Source: Melioribacteraceae bacterium
GTDB lineage: Bacteria; Bacteroidota; Ignavibacteria; Ignavibacteriales; Melioribacteraceae
DNA length: 64,000 bases
Reading direction: 5' to 3'
NCBI GenBank assembly: GCA_015493615.1
Contig: WGCV01000002.1
Coordinates: 1 to 64,000, forward strand
Shown here piece after piece: positions 40,349-49,474 of the stretch (position 1 is the stretch's first letter; every line of letters starts with the position of its first letter). Under the pieces are notes generated by a model. That model was not told the origin of the DNA. It worked only from the letters and a program-made list of their open reading frames with translations, and ran no database searches. Made by a program: the position numbers and the translations under genes.

Positions 40349-42391
40349 TTATGCCATCTTCTTAATTTCATCCACGACTTGTGGGTTGGCTAAGGTAGTT
40401 ATATCGCCCGGGTCCTTATTATCTGCTATAGCCGCCAAAACGCGTCTCATGATTTTACCGGAACGGGTTTTAGGCATATCGGGAACAATCCAAACTCTTC
40501 CCGGTTTTGCAATCGGTCCGATTTCCGAAGCTAATGTATCCGTTACTTTTTGCTCCAGTTCGGGAGTTGCTTCAATACCCGGTTTCAGCGAAACAAATAC
40601 ATGCGGTTTAACGCCTTTAATCGGGTCGGGAACAGGAACTACCGCGGCTTCGCCGACTTCGTCAACCATCAGCGCTGCGGATTCAAGCTCTTTAGTTCCG
40701 AGTCTGTGACCTGCAACGTTAATAACGTCGTCAATACGACCAAGGATACGGAAATATCCGTCCGGAGCTTCAACCGCGCCGTCGCCGGCAAAGTATGGCC
40801 AATCATGCCAGTCCTTACTGTTCGGGTCGCTGTTGTAGCGAGCGTAATATTGATTCTTGAATCTTTCGTCGTCGCCCCAGATTGTAAGCATTCTTCCGGG
40901 CCACGGATTTCTGATTACAATATTACCCGCTTTGTTGCTACCGCGCGGCAAGGGTTCGCCGTTTTCGTCAAGAATTTCAGGATAAATTCCCGGTACGCCG
41001 GGTCCTGCGCTTCCCGGTTTCATCTTATGAATAGCGGGGACCGTTGATGCCAAGAAACCGCCTGTCTCTGTCTGCCACCACGTATCAACAATAACGGCTT
41101 CTTTTTTACCGACTTCGTTATAATACCAGCGCCATACGTTCGGCTCGATAGGTTCGCCTACGGTAGTCATATGTTTAAAGTGATATTTGTATTTCGAAGG
41201 TTCGTTAGGACCTATTCTCCGAAGGGCGCGGATTGCCGTCGGCGAAGTATGGAAAATATTTACATCCAATTCTTCCGCCACTCTCCAAGGTCTTCCGGCG
41301 TCCGGATGAGTAGGAACGCCTTCAAAAATAACCGATGATGCGGCAAGAGCGAGAGGACCGTAAACAATGTAAGAATGTCCCGTAATCCAGCCGATATCAG
41401 CCATACACCAGTAAACATCTTCAGGATGAATATCCTGGATATATTTTGAAGTGCCTGTAACATAAGCCATGTAACCGCCGATTGAGTGCTGTGCGCCTTT
41501 CGGTTTGCCGGTTGTACCGGATGTGTACATCAAGAATAATGTTTCTTCCGCGTTCATCTTTTCCGGTTCAACTTCCTGATGATAGAATTCTTTTATTTTA
41601 TCATTTACCAATACGTCGCGTCCTTCTACGAGAGGAGTATCTGCGGAATATTTACCCGGATATCTTTCCCAAATAAGAACGTGTTCGACGTGCTGGCCTT
41701 CTTTTTCAGCCAAATCACAAGCTATGTCGGCTTTTTCTTTATGATCGATCAAATTGCCGGCACGATAGTAAGAATCTGCTGTAATTAATATTTTACTCTT
41801 TGCATCTACAATTCTTTCAGCTGCAGCTTTGCCGGAAAATCCGGAAAATACCTGCGAATGAATAACGCCTATTCTTGCGCATGCAAGCATCGTAATCGGA
41901 AGCTCAGCAATCATCGGCATATGAAGCGTAACTGTATCGCCGCGTTTCAATCCGTAGGATTTCAGTAAGGCGGCAAACTCGTTAACTTTAACATACAATT
42001 CCTGGAATGTCATGTGAACAATCGGTTCATCTTCCGGTTCCGGGACAAAATGTAGCGCGGTTTTATTTTTATATTTAGGGAGATGACGATCAATACAGTT
42101 ATAAGAAGCGTTTAATTTTCCGCCTACAAACCATTTGAAGAAGGGAGGATTTGAACTGTCAAGCGTTGTATGCCAATATTCATACCAATCGAGCATATCG
42201 GCATATTCTTTAAAACACTCCGGAAAATTCTTTTCGCTGAATTTTTCAAGAACATTTTCGTCAGTCAAATTTGCCTGAGCGATAAAATGCACCGGAGGTT
42301 CGAAGTATTCTTCCTCTTTCCAATGCACAGCAATCTGCGCTTCGGAAACTACATCCTCATTTTCATTTTTTTTGATTTCGTTTTCGTCCAT
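40349..42391 (-). CDS. acs: Acetyl-CoA synthetase (AMP-forming)
   Basis: The 680-residue enzyme activates acetate through acetyl-AMP. Motif A5/ATP loop is YTSGTTGKPKGAQHS (about residues 290-304), with YGPLALAASS, DTWWQTETGG and WDDRF-type WGDDERFKNQY segments. The C-terminal catalytic lysine is Lys646 in PKTRSGKIMRR, the exact motif acetylated by Pat-type enzymes and reversed by AcuC/sirtuin deacetylases. It follows the acetate transporter gene by 31 nt, and a strong terminator closes it. Confidence 0.97.
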   Translation of the reverse strand: MDENEIKKNENEDVVSEAQIAVHWKEEEYFEPPVHFIAQANLTDENVLEKFSEKNFPECFKEYADMLDWYEYWHTTLDSSNPPFFKWFVGGKLNASYNCIDRHLPKYKNKTALHFVPEPEDEPIVHMTFQELYVKVNEFAALLKSYGLKRGDTVTLHMPMIAELPITMLACARIGVIHSQVFSGFSGKAAAERIVDAKSKILITADSYYRAGNLIDHKEKADIACDLAEKEGQHVEHVLIWERYPGKYSADTPLVEGRDVLVNDKIKEFYHQEVEPEKMNAEETLFLMYTSGTTGKPKGAQHSIGGYMAYVTGTSKYIQDIHPEDVYWCMADIGWITGHSYIVYGPLALAASSVIFEGVPTHPDAGRPWRVAEELDVNIFHTSPTAIRALRRIGPNEPSKYKYHFKHMTTVGEPIEPNVWRWYYNEVGKKEAVIVDTWWQTETGGFLASTVPAIHKMKPGSAGPGVPGIYPEILDENGEPLPRGSNKAGNIVIRNPWPGRMLTIWGDDERFKNQYYARYNSDPNSKDWHDWPYFAGDGAVEAPDGYFRILGRIDDVINVAGHRLGTKELESAALMVDEVGEAAVVPVPDPIKGVKPHVFVSLKPGIEATPELEQKVTDTLASEIGPIAKPGRVWIVPDMPKTRSGKIMRRVLAAIADNKDPGDITTLANPQVVDEIKKMA

Positions 42392-42422
42392 TGTAACTCC
42401 TGATTAAAATTCAAAAAATAGT

Positions 42423-42998
42423 TTATTCCCCTATCGGCATTACAGTTTTGCCGTAAGTTTCGTTAACGACCTGAGCCAACGCTAAATAAACCGCTGACAA
42501 ACCGCAGAAGAGTCCTTCCCAGCCTGCAATAACGCCAATAACCGCACTGCCTGTAGCATCTTTTATAGCCAACAACCAGAATAAAATCCACAAAGTAAGG
42601 AATACAGTTTGAAGAGCTTTGTTATGTTTTAATGTTGCAATCCAAAGAACAAATGTGAAGAGTCCCCACATAAAGAGATATGCAACCATTCCTCCTTCTG
42701 TTGCCGCATTGAACCAACCATGTTTTCCGCCCAAAATCAAAAAGACAAGAGTTAACCAGAAAAGTCCGTATGAAGTAAATGCGGTTGTTCCGAAAGTATT
42801 GCCTTTTTTCCATTCCATCCAACCGGCAAAGATTTGCGCTAAACCGCCGTAAAATACTCCCATTGCAAGCACCATCGTGCCGAGGTTGTAAATTCCCGCA
42901 TTGTGAAGATTTAATAATACTGTTGTCATACCGAATCCCATTAATCCTAAGGGAGCCGGATTGGCGGTAGTATCAACAAGACGTGTTTCTTCAGACAT
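42423..42998 (-). CDS. Acetate/succinate transporter, GPR1/FUN34/YaaH (SatP) family
   Basis: The 191-residue polytopic protein contains the family signature region [23 protein letters not shown] (about residues 13-35; NPAPLGL is diagnostic) and six hydrophobic helices. The ribosome-binding site GGAGGC lies 6-7 nt before the ATG. Members carry acetate or succinate with protons across the cytoplasmic membrane. The location 31 nt before acs supports acetate as the substrate. Confidence 0.9.
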
Positions 42999-43464: not shown

Positions 43465-45009
43465 TTATAACGGTATATTCGAATGTTTTTTCTTCGGATT
43501 GGAATCGACTTTTGTTTTCAGCAGCTGAAAAACATTCACCAATTTTTTTCTTGTCTCGGAAGGTTCGATAACATCGTCTATATAACCTCTTGAAGCCGCA
43601 ATGAACGGATTGGCAAATTTTTCACGATAAGTGTTTATCATTTCTTCCAATTTTTCTTCCGGGTTCTCGGCATTTTTAATTTCTTTATTGAATATAATCT
43701 CAACCGCTCCTTTCGGGCCCATAACCGCAATCTCGGCGGTCGGCCAGGCAAAGTTAAAATCGCCTCGAATGTGTTTGGAGTTCATCACATCGTAAGCGCC
43801 GCCGTAAGCTTTACGGGTAATTACCGTAACTTTAGGAACCGTAGCTTCACTGAATGCAAATAACAATTTCGCTCCGTTGCTGATAATTCCGTTCCACTCC
43901 TGCTCGGTGCCCGGCAAAAATCCCGGAACGTCTTCCAAAACTAAAAGCGGAATATTAAAAGCATCGCAGAAACGAACGAACCGCGCCGCCTTCTTGGATG
44001 AATTAATATCAAGCACACCGGCGAGAGAAGCGGGCTGGTTTGCTATTATCCCGATTGAAACTCCTCCCATCCTTGCGAAACCGACTATGATGTTTTCCGC
44101 ATACTCGGCATGGACTTCCATAAAATCGCCGTCGTCAATAAGAAGATTTATTACCTTCTTCATATCGTAAGGTTTGTTTGGATTTTCAGGGACGATGTTG
44201 TTAAGTTCGGGAACGATTAAATCCTGCGCAAAATCAAAATCTGTTTCCGGCGCACGGTCTTTCCAGTTCTGAGGAATAAAATCTATCAGCTTTCGTATAT
44301 TTTCAATTACTTCAATTTCATTATCAAAAGCAAAATGAGCTACGCCGCTTTTGGATGCGTGCGTATCGGCGCCGCCCAAATCTTCAAACGAAACCTCTTC
44401 GTGAGTTACCGTTTTTACAACGTTCGGGCCCGTTACAAACATGTAGCTTGTTCCTCGAGCCATAAAAATAAAATCTGTAATTGCGGGAGAATAAACCGCG
44501 CCACCTGCGCTTGGTCCGAGTATTGCCGAGATTTGCGGAACAACTCCGGAAGCCAAAGTATTACGGAGAAAAATATCGGCGTAACCGCCGAGACTAACAA
44601 CGCCTTCCTGAATTCGAGCGCCGCCGGAATCGTTCAAACCGATTATCGGTATTCCCATCTTCATTGCCAAATCCATTATTTTGCAGATTTTCTCGGCGTG
44701 GGCTTCCGACAACGAGCCGCCGAAGACTGTGAAATCCTGACTAAAAACCGCAACAACTCTTCCGTTGATTTTTCCGAATCCGGTTACAACTCCATCGCCG
44801 GGGACTTTCTTTTTATCCAATCCGAAATCTGTTGCGCGGCTTTCGACGAACATATCGAGTTCGTCAAAACTACCTTCGTCAAGAAGCAAATCCACTCTTT
44901 CGCGCGCTGTAAATTTACCTTTTTCATGTTGCTTTGCTATTTTATCGGCGCCTCCGCCTAATCTTGCTTTTTCTCTTAAACTTTCCAAATAATCAATTTT
45001 TTCTTTCAT
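43465..45009 (-). CDS. Acyl-CoA carboxylase carboxyltransferase (propionyl/methylmalonyl-CoA type)
   Basis: The 514-residue protein is a biotin-dependent carboxyltransferase of the PccB/MmdA class. Signatures are [38 protein letters not shown] and [18 protein letters not shown] in the N-terminal subdomain and [21 protein letters not shown] and [13 protein letters not shown] in the C-terminal one. It could form part of propionyl-CoA carboxylase or a sodium-pumping methylmalonyl-CoA decarboxylase; biotin carrier and other subunits are not adjacent. It would feed the same methylmalonyl-CoA pool as the B12-binding subunit at 10.4 kb. Confidence 0.92.
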
Positions 45010-45084
45010 CTGTAAAATGTCCTGATTTTTTTCTAAACTTTCACAAAAAATATATTATTAAAATTATAAGTTACTTCACGCTAA

Positions 45085-45154
45085 GTCCGAGTTTCATTCA
45101 TTTCTCTTCGCTCCATTCAGAATGACATATAAATTAGGTTTTGCAAAGCCTTCT
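45085..45154 (-). repeat. Partial 145-bp element, copy 3 (right end only)
   Basis: The segment ending CATTCAGAATGACATATAAA then TTAGGTTTTGCAAAGCCTTC reproduces the right half of the inverted-end element, preceded by a variant TTCATTTCTCTTCGCTCC. The left half is missing. It lies 27 nt past the stop of the ABC ATPase gene at 45182, again at the 3' end of a minus-strand gene. Confidence 0.7.
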
Positions 45155-45181
45155 CTTAATTATCAATTGTCGGCTGTTCTA

Positions 45182-45949
45182 CTAAATTTTCACCGTCAAA
45201 AATTTATCATTTGCCTCTTTATATCTTTTAAGAATTGAGTTTCTCAATTCCAAAAACTCTTTTGAATCCAACATTGACGCGTCTCTTTCTTCCGGCAAAG
45301 GAATTTCGTACCGTTCAATTATTTTTCCGGGATGTTTGCTCATCAGCAGTAATTTATCGGATAAAAACAAACCGTCGGTTAAGTTATTTGTTGCGAAAAG
45401 AAATGTAGTCTTGTCGTAAATTTTATTAAGCTCTCTGAGTTTTACCAATAATTCAAACCGGGTCTTCTCATCATCGATATTATCAAGAGCGTCATCAATC
45501 AATACAATCAGTGGATTCTTTGCCAGTGCGCGGGCAAGCTCAATCCTCAAGCGGAATCCGTAACTTTTCGAATGAGGAGAAAAATCTTCGTAGCCGGTTA
45601 GCCCGACGGCGTCTATTGCCTTTTGAACTTCCCTTTCCGAAACTTCTTTTGCGGTAAACTTTATATTTTCCTTAACGCTTTTCCATTGAAGCGATGTCGG
45701 CGTATCAGCAATTAACGCGGAAATTCTTTCATCCGATTTAATTATTTCGCCTTCAAAATCTGTTTCGGTTCGTGACAGGATTTTCAACAGCGTTGATTTT
45801 CCCGAGCCGTAAGGAGCAAGGATAACGGTAAACTCGTTTTCGTGTATTGTAAACGAAAGGTCTTCGAATAAGCGAATTTTATATCCGGTGTTATCTACAT
45901 AATCTTTAGTTAAAGATTTAGCTTCAAGAACAACTTTATTTGATTTCAT
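45182..45949 (-). CDS. ABC transporter ATP-binding protein with atypical catalytic motifs
   Basis: The 255-residue ATPase is closest in layout to NitT/TauT-type ATPases. Walker A is intact (APYGSGKST, Lys51). Other motifs deviate: the LSGGQ region reads SKSYGFRLRIELARAL (128-142), the Walker B end reads LIDDALDNID with Asp153 where the catalytic Glu is expected, and the His-switch position is Asn188 (FATNNL). The Q-loop area is PTSLQWKSVKENI. It overlaps the permease gene by 14 nt. It may hydrolyse ATP slowly, function as a regulated gate, or be an inactive partner. No substrate-binding protein gene is adjacent. Confidence 0.82.
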   Translation of the reverse strand: MKSNKVVLEAKSLTKDYVDNTGYKIRLFEDLSFTIHENEFTVILAPYGSGKSTLLKILSRTETDFEGEIIKSDERISALIADTPTSLQWKSVKENIKFTAKEVSEREVQKAIDAVGLTGYEDFSPHSKSYGFRLRIELARALAKNPLIVLIDDALDNIDDEKTRFELLVKLRELNKIYDKTTFLFATNNLTDGLFLSDKLLLMSKHPGKIIERYEIPLPEERDASMLDSKEFLELRNSILKRYKEANDKFLTVKI

Positions 45950-46700
45950 CAGGTATCCAACTTATAATTTTGTATTCAATTAATTTAAAGAGCAAACCCG
46001 AAACATAAATAACAACTATCATTATCACAATCGATAAAGTAAGAATTGAAAGGTCGTTGTATTTTAACGCTTGCAGCATCAGCGCTCCCATTCCGTAACT
46101 GCCGGAAATCATTTCGTAAATAAGCGCCCAGCCCCATGACAAAAGGAAGAGCATATGAATCTTTTCAAAAACATAGGGCTTTAATAACTTGCTTACAACA
46201 TCTCTTATTATTTCTTTCTCCGTCAGCCCTAAAGATTTCAGCGTATAAAAATAATCTTTATTGATTTTCCTGACTTCGGAGGCAAGAAATATTTTCTGCT
46301 CCAATCCCGCCACAAGCATCAGAAAAACAAGCTCTGCAATCCATGAACTTCCGAACCAATAAATCATAAAGAGCATAAGAAAAACATATGAGAAAAAACG
46401 AAAAGAAAAAAGAAGCGTTGAGCTTAGGTCGTATGTTAAAAACAACTTAGGACTGTAATACCTCGTAACATAACAGCAAAGGAAACCCAAAATCGGAATT
46501 AGCGCGACAAGAAGCGCCGTTAGCCCGATTGCGCTAATAAAATAGTACTCGGAAAAAAGAGTCCCGAGCGAGTCTATCATGGAAGCGGGCGAAGGTAAAA
46601 TCTGGTTTGGAGGTAAAATAAATTGGAATAGAATAATATATATAAATGTGAACCAAGCGGCTATTTTAGCAAAGCTTTTGTATCCCGAATAATCTGTCAT
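45936..46700 (-). CDS. ABC transporter permease, NitT/TauT-like
   Basis: The 254-residue protein has an N-terminal helix plus about five more membrane helices of a BPD-type permease. The cytoplasmic EAA loop is TLKSLGLTEKEIIRDVVSKLLKPYVFEKI (about residues 160-188) and LLSWGWALIYEMISGSYGMGALM follows, where W.xLI.E......GlG typical of nitrate/sulfonate/taurine permeases is found. It overlaps the ATPase gene by 14 nt, forming one transporter without a visible binding protein. Confidence 0.82.
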   Translation of the reverse strand: MTDYSGYKSFAKIAAWFTFIYIILFQFILPPNQILPSPASMIDSLGTLFSEYYFISAIGLTALLVALIPILGFLCCYVTRYYSPKLFLTYDLSSTLLFSFRFFSYVFLMLFMIYWFGSSWIAELVFLMLVAGLEQKIFLASEVRKINKDYFYTLKSLGLTEKEIIRDVVSKLLKPYVFEKIHMLFLLSWGWALIYEMISGSYGMGALMLQALKYNDLSILTLSIVIMIVVIYVSGLLFKLIEYKIISWIPDEIK

Positions 46701-46779
46701 ATTTAATTACCAAATTCAATGATTAAGAATCAAAATATATTTAAGATGTAACGGGAAATCAATCTAAAAGAAAAATAAT

Positions 46780-47757
46780 TTATTTCAGCAGTTTCTTGAT
46801 TTTCTGCTTAACTAATTTTTGATAACCGTACTTAATCTTACTCGGCAATGCGGCTACCGCATATTTATCAGTAGGAAAAGCGAATGAAGGCTCGAAATAA
46901 CAGTTAACCGCACACCCTTCGCAGAAATCAAACCGCCCTTCCATTGATTTATAATATTGATATTCATCGCTTTTGATAACATCGGCAATTGATTTTTTAA
47001 TCGGAATCGTTTTCCGCATAAAATGGTAGCACGGAAGTACGACTTCATTCATCGGCGAAATAACCATAACTCTCGATACAGCTTTGCACTTTGGGCTTTC
47101 GATATGATTGCCTCCGTCGCGCCGCAAATCGATAAAAGCCTTGTTCAGATAGGCGTTGCTCTTGCCTTGTACGAAATCCTCAATAAAATCAAGAGCCTCA
47201 AGGGATAACCCGGGATTACCGAAATAAGAAAAAACCGGATTTACAAGAAGAATCAAATCATGCTTAACGGCTATATCGTACATGCGCGGAAGTTTTTTGT
47301 ATGTTTCATTTGTAACCGTAAAAAGAATATCGGGGAATTCTCCGAGCGATTTTGCCAATTCAATAGATTCGAAAACCGATTTGTAACTCTCAACTCCTCG
47401 TATTTTATTATGCTCATCCTCGTCGGGAGAATCAAGCGAGAAGTGAAGCAGGTTTACCTTCCCCGCCAACTTTTCGGCATACTTGGAATAAAGCAAAGTG
47501 TTCGTCGTAATGCTTGTCTGCATTTTCAATGCCCTCGCATGTTCTGTCATTTCGACAATATGGGGATTTAACAATGGCTCGCCGCCGGTTAAGTCGATAA
47601 ACTTTACTCCGAGTTTCTTCAGTTCGTTTGTGTTCCGGATAAAATCTTCAAGAGAAGCATGCGGAGTATCTTTATATTTTCCGTGCGCGGCAAATTCACA
47701 AAACTCACAATAAGCGTTGCAGCGGTATGTTACATAATAATTGCAGAGAAGAAGCAT
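46780..47757 (-). CDS. Radical SAM protein with C-terminal cysteine cluster
   Basis: I choose ATG 47757, which forms a TGATG junction with the stop of the glycosyltransferase gene (1-nt overlap); this gives 325 residues with the cluster motif CNAYCEFC (Cys13, Cys17, Cys20) near the N terminus. The core has DLTGGEPLLNP. The C-terminal third has several cysteines (SPKCKAV, LPCYHF, FDFCEGCAVNCYFEP), suggesting SPASM-like extra Fe-S clusters. The substrate is unknown. The genes around it point to a role in making or modifying a polysaccharide, lipid or peptide that is carried by the adjacent ABC system, but that is inference. Confidence 0.8.
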   Translation of the reverse strand: MLLLCNYYVTYRCNAYCEFCEFAAHGKYKDTPHASLEDFIRNTNELKKLGVKFIDLTGGEPLLNPHIVEMTEHARALKMQTSITTNTLLYSKYAEKLAGKVNLLHFSLDSPDEDEHNKIRGVESYKSVFESIELAKSLGEFPDILFTVTNETYKKLPRMYDIAVKHDLILLVNPVFSYFGNPGLSLEALDFIEDFVQGKSNAYLNKAFIDLRRDGGNHIESPKCKAVSRVMVISPMNEVVLPCYHFMRKTIPIKKSIADVIKSDEYQYYKSMEGRFDFCEGCAVNCYFEPSFAFPTDKYAVAALPSKIKYGYQKLVKQKIKKLLK

Positions 47758-48848
47758 CAGTACTTTCTTCCTTTCCAATCTACTTTTCTCGTTACGGCAA
47801 CGACAATAGGCAAAATGATTACATAAATTGTGTAATATATTTCAAATGCGGCATAATCGGAAAGTTTGATTGAAAGTCCTAATTTTTTATTTGACGAATA
47901 AAGCAGAAGATAATCTGAAATCAGCTTGAAGAAAAGAATTTCGAGAATTACCGGAGAATAAAAAAACAGCGAAAGGATGGTAAATAAATTTGTTAAAAAA
48001 CCGGTCGCCATAATCAGAAAACCGGCAAAATCCGTTTTTAATCCGCCGACGCCCCAACGTTTTTTCTGGCGGTAAATGGACTTAACGGAATCAAGCGGCT
48101 TGGAAATAACAAGCGCATCTTTATCTAACGGATAAATTGTTTTATATTTTTTCAGCGCATGAATTTTCTGAATCAGAGCAAGATCTTCGGTAACGGAAAA
48201 CGGGATTGCCGCGTAGCCACCGATTTCGTCGTACGCTTTTCTCGTAAAGGACATATTATTTCCGATACAGCTGACGGGAATTCCGTAATTAATTGTTCCC
48301 GCCGCAACCGTCAGCAAATAAACAAAATCCAACGCCTGCATTCCTTCAAAAGTTTTACTGTTTTTCTGAGTGGTAAATCCTCCCACAAAAGCGACGTCAT
48401 CCTTAAAATATGAAGCGAGAGTTGCAGCCCACGTTTTGGGAACTATGCAATCGGCGTCGGTTGTTAAAATAATCTCGCCCGTTGAGTTTTTAATACCGTT
48501 AGCCAATGCGTTTGCTTTGCCCGGCTTTTCGGCAATCCTCTCGTTCGGTTTAATAAGTTTGAAATTATTTTTGTCCTTAATAAAGTCCCTTACAATCGAA
48601 TAAGTTTTATCGGTCGAATCATCATCTACTATAATAACCTCAAGTTTTCCTTCCGGGTATTCAAGTTCAGAAAGCGAAGCGACGCATTCGAGAATATTGT
48701 CTTCCTCATTTCTTGCCGCAACAATAACAGAAGCGGTCGGTAATTTATCATAAGGGATTTTGTCATAACGCTTGTAAGCGCCAATCATAAAAAGGGCTGT
48801 TTGAATAAAATAAGCCGAAACAATTATTAGAAAAATCAGTTCAAACAT
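47757..48848 (-). CDS. Membrane GT2 family glycosyltransferase
   Basis: The 363-residue protein has an N-terminal helix, a GT-A domain (about residues 40-265) with SVIVAARNEEDNILECVASL, VDDDSTDKT (nucleotide-binding), TTDADCIVP (metal DxD) and QKKRWGVGG (QxxRW) motifs, and two or three C-terminal helices. This matches processive or polyprenol-linked GT2 enzymes such as those of exopolysaccharide or glycolipid synthesis. It overlaps the NodB deacetylase gene by 13 nt and the radical SAM gene by 1 nt. Confidence 0.85.
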   Translation of the reverse strand: MFELIFLIIVSAYFIQTALFMIGAYKRYDKIPYDKLPTASVIVAARNEEDNILECVASLSELEYPEGKLEVIIVDDDSTDKTYSIVRDFIKDKNNFKLIKPNERIAEKPGKANALANGIKNSTGEIILTTDADCIVPKTWAATLASYFKDDVAFVGGFTTQKNSKTFEGMQALDFVYLLTVAAGTINYGIPVSCIGNNMSFTRKAYDEIGGYAAIPFSVTEDLALIQKIHALKKYKTIYPLDKDALVISKPLDSVKSIYRQKKRWGVGGLKTDFAGFLIMATGFLTNLFTILSLFFYSPVILEILFFKLISDYLLLYSSNKKLGLSIKLSDYAAFEIYYTIYVIILPIVVAVTRKVDWKGRKY

Positions 48849-49474
48849 TCTTCAGCGCTTCCAATTTCAAAATTATTTTTCTCAGCTTGATTAATTGCAT
48901 AGTTAATTGATTCTTCAATAATCCCGCTTGATTTTCTGCTGTCGTGAAAAACCAATATCGAATTTTTCATTAGATATTTATCAACGGATTTTTTTACAAC
49001 CGTAAAATCGTTTTTGTAATCGTAAGTTAAAAGTGACCACATCACATTTTTAAGTCCGAACCGGTTTAATTGCTTGGACAAATTTAGAGGAAATCTACCG
49101 TGCGGAGGACGAAAATAATTTACTTTATAATTGAAATCCTCAGACAAAATTTTTTGCACCGCCCCGATTTCTTCCTCTCTTTCCGATTTGTTCAATCTTG
49201 TTAAAACAGAATGACGCATTGTGTGATTCCCAATCTGATGACCATCTTCCAAAATCATTTTAACCAGTTCAGGATAACGTTTTACATTTTCTCCGACTAA
49301 AAAAAACAACGCCTTAATATTTTTCTTTTTCAACGAACTTAAAATTATTTCCGTCGTTCCGGGATTCGGTCCGTCGTCAAAAGAAAAAAGGATTTTGTCG
49401 CTCGACGATTCCCAAGCGAAATTATGAAACATCCGTTTCACCAATATAGGCGGATTATATAAATAGATAGACAT
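48836..49474 (-). CDS. Polysaccharide deacetylase (NodB/CE4 family)
   Basis: The 212-residue protein contains the CE4 motifs FSFDDGPNP (catalytic base Asp and metal Asp), GNHTMRHS (metal His pair), YFRPPHGRFP and ILVFHDS. No signal peptide is visible, so it acts inside the cell or at the inner membrane face. It leads the GT2-radical SAM-ABC gene run with 13-nt overlap to the GT2. A role in deacetylating an N-acetylated sugar intermediate is reasonable; the exact polymer is unknown. Confidence 0.85.
   Translation of the reverse strand: MSIYLYNPPILVKRMFHNFAWESSSDKILFSFDDGPNPGTTEIILSSLKKKNIKALFFLVGENVKRYPELVKMILEDGHQIGNHTMRHSVLTRLNKSEREEEIGAVQKILSEDFNYKVNYFRPPHGRFPLNLSKQLNRFGLKNVMWSLLTYDYKNDFTVVKKSVDKYLMKNSILVFHDSRKSSGIIEESINYAINQAEKNNFEIGSAEECLN

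Follow-up and report, generated by a model that had tools for sequence, protein, structure and literature searches.

A conserved NodB-GT2-radical SAM gene unit in a Melioribacteraceae bacterium and its possible role in the synthesis of a modified aminoglycolipid

The window analyzed here, a stretch of 64,000 nucleotides forming positions 1 to 64,000 of contig WGCV01000002.1 from a Melioribacteraceae bacterium, encodes on its minus strand a NodB-type (CE4) de-N-acetylase (48836..49474, 212 aa; PF01522, 1.8e-31), a GT2 membrane glycosyltransferase (47757..48848, 363 aa; PF00535, 4.6e-29), a radical SAM enzyme (46780..47757, 325 aa; PF04055, 2.7e-24), an ABC permease of the BPD_transp_1 type (45936..46700; PF00528, 3e-13), an ABC ATPase (45182..45949; PF00005, 4.9e-18) and a PCCB-like carboxyltransferase subunit of an acyl-CoA carboxylase (43465..45009; PF01039, 3.3e-196). 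The initial annotation had grouped the first five of these genes as one envelope cluster. All five open reading frames were recovered at the positions it gave, its domain calls are each backed by the respective Pfam match, and the overlaps it reported (13 nt between the NodB and GT2 genes, 1 nt between the GT2 and radical SAM genes and 14 nt between the permease and ATPase genes) are correct, as is the 79-nt gap ahead of the permease gene. The radical SAM gene starts at 47757 with an ATG that shares one base with the stop codon of the GT2 gene (TGATG), while the list of open reading frames also offers an alternative TTG start upstream of it, at 47778. An Rfam search yielded no RNA family reaching its gathering score, and a scan for promoters and terminators gave signal at or below the shuffled background.

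In the deacetylase the CE4 motif residues D33, D34, H84, H88, R122 and H177 are invariant across 17 relatives, and its profile matches point to a resemblance to NodB and the peptidoglycan deacetylases. It displays no hydrophobic N-terminal segment when the sequence is read by eye, and is therefore probably cytosolic. The glycosyltransferase has one N-terminal and about three C-terminal membrane helices and preserves the DxD, ED and QxxRW motifs, with D76, D131/D133, D222 and Q261xxR264W265 invariant in 23 sequences. Its structural model (pLDDT 94.6) finds its best matches among hyaluronan and cellulose synthases, headed by a hyaluronan synthase with a Z-score of 29 over 343 residues, and ArnC structures appear low on the Foldseek list. 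Its best NCBIfam match is PgaC/IcaA (96.8 bits, cut-off 422); it also scores against HpnI (52.6 bits, cut-off 310) and the ArnC-type family (26.2 bits, cut-off 529).

The third protein belongs to the radical SAM superfamily by its CX3CX2C motif (C13, C17 and C20), its PF04055 match and its core fold. Five further cysteines towards the C-terminus (C224, C243, C279, C282 and C286) probably constitute an auxiliary Fe-S site; all eight cysteines are conserved in at least 97% of 63 orthologues and are invariant in A1. The closest structural match of its model (pLDDT 89.6) is BlsE (Z-score 25.9 over 285 residues, 3.2 A); this cytosylglucuronate decarboxylase is itself of the radical SAM type and acts on a nucleoside sugar acid. 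SuiB, SkfB, MoaA and viperin occupy the next rows, at Z-scores of 23.9 and below, and the sugar-acting DesII and BtrN come lower; its structural neighbors include peptide maturases, MoaA and viperin besides sugar-acting enzymes. Among sequence profiles, that of the PTO1314 family (TIGR03961) spans nearly the whole protein (residues 5-293) with 85 bits against a cut-off of 306, and this family passes its cut-off in one of 14 control genomes. The HpnH profile aligns only with residues 10-178 of the window's protein (42.4 bits, cut-off 225), scoring 42-62 bits over the N-terminal part of the radical SAM proteins, and their C-terminus shows a weak match to DUF3463 in 15 of 30 members (best 7.5e-5). 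The NCBIfam scores listed for the window's glycosyltransferase and radical SAM proteins all lie under the family cut-offs. Pfam returned no match to a B12 domain in the radical SAM protein.

Comparison of gene neighborhoods resolves the five genes into two units, namely the NodB-GT2-radical SAM operon and the ABC pair tied to the PCCB-like gene. In four related genomes (G001, G002, G003 and G008) the permease-ATPase pair lies directly upstream of the PCCB-like gene, just as in the window, and at a distance from the NodB-GT2 locus; the ATPase and PCCB-like genes are separated by 1 nt in G001, 3 nt in G008 and 33 nt in G002. The pair adjoins the triad only in the window's genome (G000) and its close sister G004, and in the other long loci read no ABC pair stands behind the triad. 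Judged by the refuting condition that the initial annotation had set, two of the five families, those of the ABC pair, thus scatter independently in related genomes and the other three stay together. Hence, the pathway making and modifying a glycan or glycolipid that had been proposed at the outset is supported for the deacetylase, glycosyltransferase and radical SAM genes, and the accompanying idea that the ABC pair moves or senses its product finds no support. Adjacency on the same strand in the window's genome and G004 is what speaks for a five-gene system with the pair as transporter or sensor of a glycan product, but given its place beside the PCCB-like gene in the four relatives and its absence behind the triad elsewhere we consider such a system scarcely credible, and a cluster including the pair was rejected on gene neighborhood. 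In line with the earlier remark that no solute-binding protein accompanies the NitT/TauT-like permease, none was seen beside the ABC pair on reading the open reading frames here and in four related loci; the sole NMT1 match in the genome is marginal (20.7 bits against a cut-off of 20.5) and lies in a 533-aa frame on another contig. The permease, ATPase and carboxyltransferase genes (43465-46700) are conserved as a unit of three within this genus and also in G008. Nearby, in the region 40349-42998, a gene for a GPR1/FUN34/YaaH-family protein (42423-42998) shortly precedes a gene on its own strand that probably encodes an acetyl-CoA synthetase.

The radical SAM gene occurs in 30 of 58 related genomes, and at the loci read it directly follows the GT2 gene, with the NodB gene next to them in all but G039, which lacks NodB at the locus; G318 has the radical SAM and GT2 genes with no NodB match. 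The 1-nt GT2/radical SAM and 13-nt NodB/GT2 overlaps recur in most Ignavibacteriales loci that have the radical SAM gene. This recurrence indicates translational coupling and argues against a chance arrangement, and we are confident that the three genes constitute one well-supported gene unit. A distant Bacteroidota family (f32) presents the same order of flippase, GT2, NodB, GT2 and radical SAM genes, a likeness drawn from order and identity, its GT2 and NodB proteins being only 23-32% identical to the window's copies. In a phylogenetic tree the linked radical SAM genes fall into two well-supported separate clades, each nested among unlinked ones. The distribution is itself nested: the radical SAM gene is nearly always accompanied by the module, whereas the module often occurs without it, including in many Ignavibacteriales, as would be expected of a tailoring step.

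In relatives the fuller cluster comprises a PF03706 flippase, a second GT2 protein (GT2'), NodB, GT2 and, in some cases, the radical SAM enzyme; a DUF1207 protein and an M50 protease often come next, and bshC flanks the cluster. The flippase gene is contiguous with the NodB cluster in many relatives and adjoins GT2' in 45 of the 46 genomes that have it. The window's genome has GT2', the flippase and DUF1207 at 81.3-84.3 kb of the same contig (C2), outside the window and about 32 kb upstream of NodB; the flippase gene itself (C2:82477-83439) adjoins GT2' and is 33 kb from NodB. Nine Melioribacteraceae genomes lack NodB, the flippase and the radical SAM gene together and have one GT2 match each, a joint absence that may reflect one or a few loss events.

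Where the radical SAM gene is unlinked, an adjacent NodB-GT2 pair was nonetheless found elsewhere in 18 of 21 Bacteroidota genomes, as against 2 of 34 controls, which were genomes without the radical SAM gene picked by label number before scoring (Fisher 1.5e-9); with large NodB fusions included the control count becomes 5 of 34 (Fisher 3.6e-7). Counted by family, the pair is present in 9 of 11 with the unlinked gene versus 2 of 17 controls (p 0.0004); inclusion of fusions raises the control figure to 5 of 17 (p 0.018). All these p-values serve as guides only, since pairs were scored by hand from match tables and the sampled genomes are phylogenetically related. Frames of more than 1100 aa with a NodB match, apparently natural fusions, were seen in G324 (C4), G390 (C6) and G320 (C2), and in G324 and G390 the NodB match is joined with a GT2 match.

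This organization is reminiscent of several described lipid-modifying systems. The GpgSDF operon of Pseudomonas aeruginosa, which makes glucosaminyl-phosphatidylglycerol, encodes the GT4 enzyme GpgS, the COG3233 deacetylase GpgD, predicted to be cytosolic, and a predicted flippase of the UPF0104 (AglD2/YbhN) family (PMC12713373). The genes studied here similarly combine a glycosyltransferase with a deacetylase predicted to be cytosolic, the PF03706/UPF0104 flippase gene being contiguous with them in many relatives but 33 kb from NodB in the window's genome; they differ in having two GT2 copies, a NodB/CE4 enzyme, a radical SAM gene and DUF1207. HexSDF of Clostridioides difficile, responsible for aminohexosyl-hexosyldiradylglycerol, likewise pairs a glycosyltransferase and a polysaccharide deacetylase with an MprF-like flippase; in contrast to our cluster it has no radical SAM gene and a Gram-positive host, and HexS is MGDG-synthase-like (PMC10128005, PMC11898633). 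The deacetylase gene beside a glycosyltransferase gene, a feature of SDF-type operons, is found here with its 13-nt overlap conserved across the order, but the glycosyltransferase is a GT2 enzyme; as HexS and GpgS belong to other families, the likeness is one of layout and not of orthology. In hopanoid producers the closely associated HpnI, HpnK and HpnJ genes account for GlcNAc transfer, deacetylation and a radical SAM step (PMC12583986), the same succession on lipid-linked GlcNAc/GlcN that we envisage here, the differences being the NodB-type deacetylase, a different radical SAM family of 325 aa and the lack of a squalene-hopene cyclase. This cyclase (PF13243) is absent from the window's genome and over its cut-off in 3 of 58 relatives; a hopanoid acceptor is thus unlikely, and the hopanoid pathway as such was rejected. 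Finally, the archaeal calditol synthase, also a radical SAM enzyme, is proposed to take a glycosyl lipid head built by one glycosyltransferase and rearrange it before a second glycosyltransferase acts (PMC9385802); the parallel lies in the proposed reaction on a glycosyl lipid, while the archaeal substrate is a tetraether lipid.

Based on these observations we propose, with about an even chance of being right, that the operon acts together with the distant flippase and GT2' to make a modified aminoglycolipid, to which the radical SAM enzyme would add a tailoring step, and that a once longer arrangement is split in two here, with DUF1207-PF03706 flippase-GT2' as the upstream and NodB-GT2-radical SAM as the downstream half of the operon. 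We infer the chemistry by analogy with GpgSDF, HexSDF and HpnI-HpnK-HpnJ. At the cytosolic face of the inner membrane, a GT2 enzyme would use UDP-GlcNAc as donor to attach N-acetylglucosamine to a lipid acceptor. The cytosolic NodB would strip off the acetyl group, exposing a free amine, and the second GT2 would add another sugar. Next, the radical SAM enzyme would act on the lipid-linked sugar by 5'-deoxyadenosyl-radical chemistry, be it a rearrangement, dehydrogenation or C-C bond formation, in the manner supposed for HpnJ and calditol synthase. The product would finally be flipped outward by the PF03706 protein.

The main rival to this proposal is that the genes direct the synthesis of an envelope amino-polysaccharide, with the GT2 enzymes being processive and similar to those making hyaluronan, PNAG or chitin oligosaccharides, NodB deacetylating the chain as in the NodC-NodB system, and the radical SAM enzyme acting on an unrelated or capping step. 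A polysaccharide product is conceivable since the window's GT2, with its QxxRW motif, is nearest to hyaluronan and cellulose synthases by structure and to PgaC by profile, and the deacetylase resembles NodB and the peptidoglycan deacetylases. Yet the PgaC score is far under its cut-off, NodB has no visible export signal, in contrast to deacetylases of the PgaB type, it is a PF03706 flippase that forms the conserved partner, and in reading the loci we noticed neither a secretion porin nor a PgaD or c-di-GMP gene; on balance we regard this explanation as unlikely. Another rival is a route like that of ArnC and ArnD, of which the former is a GT2 enzyme with undecaprenyl phosphate as its substrate and the latter is of the NodB type. 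In such a route GT2 would load undecaprenyl phosphate, NodB would deacylate the carrier-linked sugar, the radical SAM enzyme would modify the sugar, and lipid A or a surface glycan would be decorated. Besides this precedent there are ArnC structures among the GT2 fold matches, but their low rank, the weak ArnC-type profile score and the failure to notice an ArnT-like periplasmic transferase in the conserved neighborhood make it distinctly improbable.

Alternatively, the radical SAM enzyme might act as HpnH does and add 5'-deoxyadenosyl to an unsaturated lipid, with GT2 and NodB decorating the newly created hydroxylated head. The DUF3463 match of its C-terminus and the HpnH profile match of its N-terminal part would fit this, but with a score so far under the HpnH cut-off, a genome without squalene-hopene cyclase and no HpnG-like phosphorylase noticed, we deem it very improbable.

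Returning to the modified aminoglycolipid, a broader and more tentative extension is that many non-hopanoid Bacteroidota possibly make such a lipid with its amino sugar rebuilt, for example ring-contracted or carbon-carbon linked, through a radical SAM family that is so far undescribed, giving a bacterial parallel to the cyclitol ethers of hopanoids and to the calditol of archaea. A literature search returned nothing usable on this gene set in Bacteroidota, on Hymenobacter aminoglycolipids or on Melioribacter polar lipids. If correct, the aminoglycolipid proposal would supply a pathway for a radical SAM family that recurs in at least a dozen Bacteroidota families and has no assigned function in the libraries searched. 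It would also predict modified amino-sugar lipids of a class not yet described in the membrane, where they could tune charge and antimicrobial tolerance; they could also be of use as biomarkers.

The wider neighborhoods show additional recurrent associations. The bacillithiol synthesis gene bshC neighbors the flippase/NodB/GT2 cluster in several families (L077:7076-8698, L083:3667-5316, L118, L119, L127, L131 and L132). Families f4 and f22 (L118, L119, L127, L131, L132; L076, L078, L080) have a NodB/GT2/bshC block without an adjacent radical SAM gene, with DUF1207 included in some loci; G058 and G068 have that gene on the same contig, at a distance of about 50 kb. Downstream of the GT2 or radical SAM gene, loci L034-L048 contain a conserved run encoding DUF1207, an M50 protease, a protein resembling lipoproteins, a propeller-like protein that may bear a sorting tail, and two more secreted proteins. 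Genomes without NodB and the radical SAM gene (L036, L037 and L044) keep this run behind GT2.
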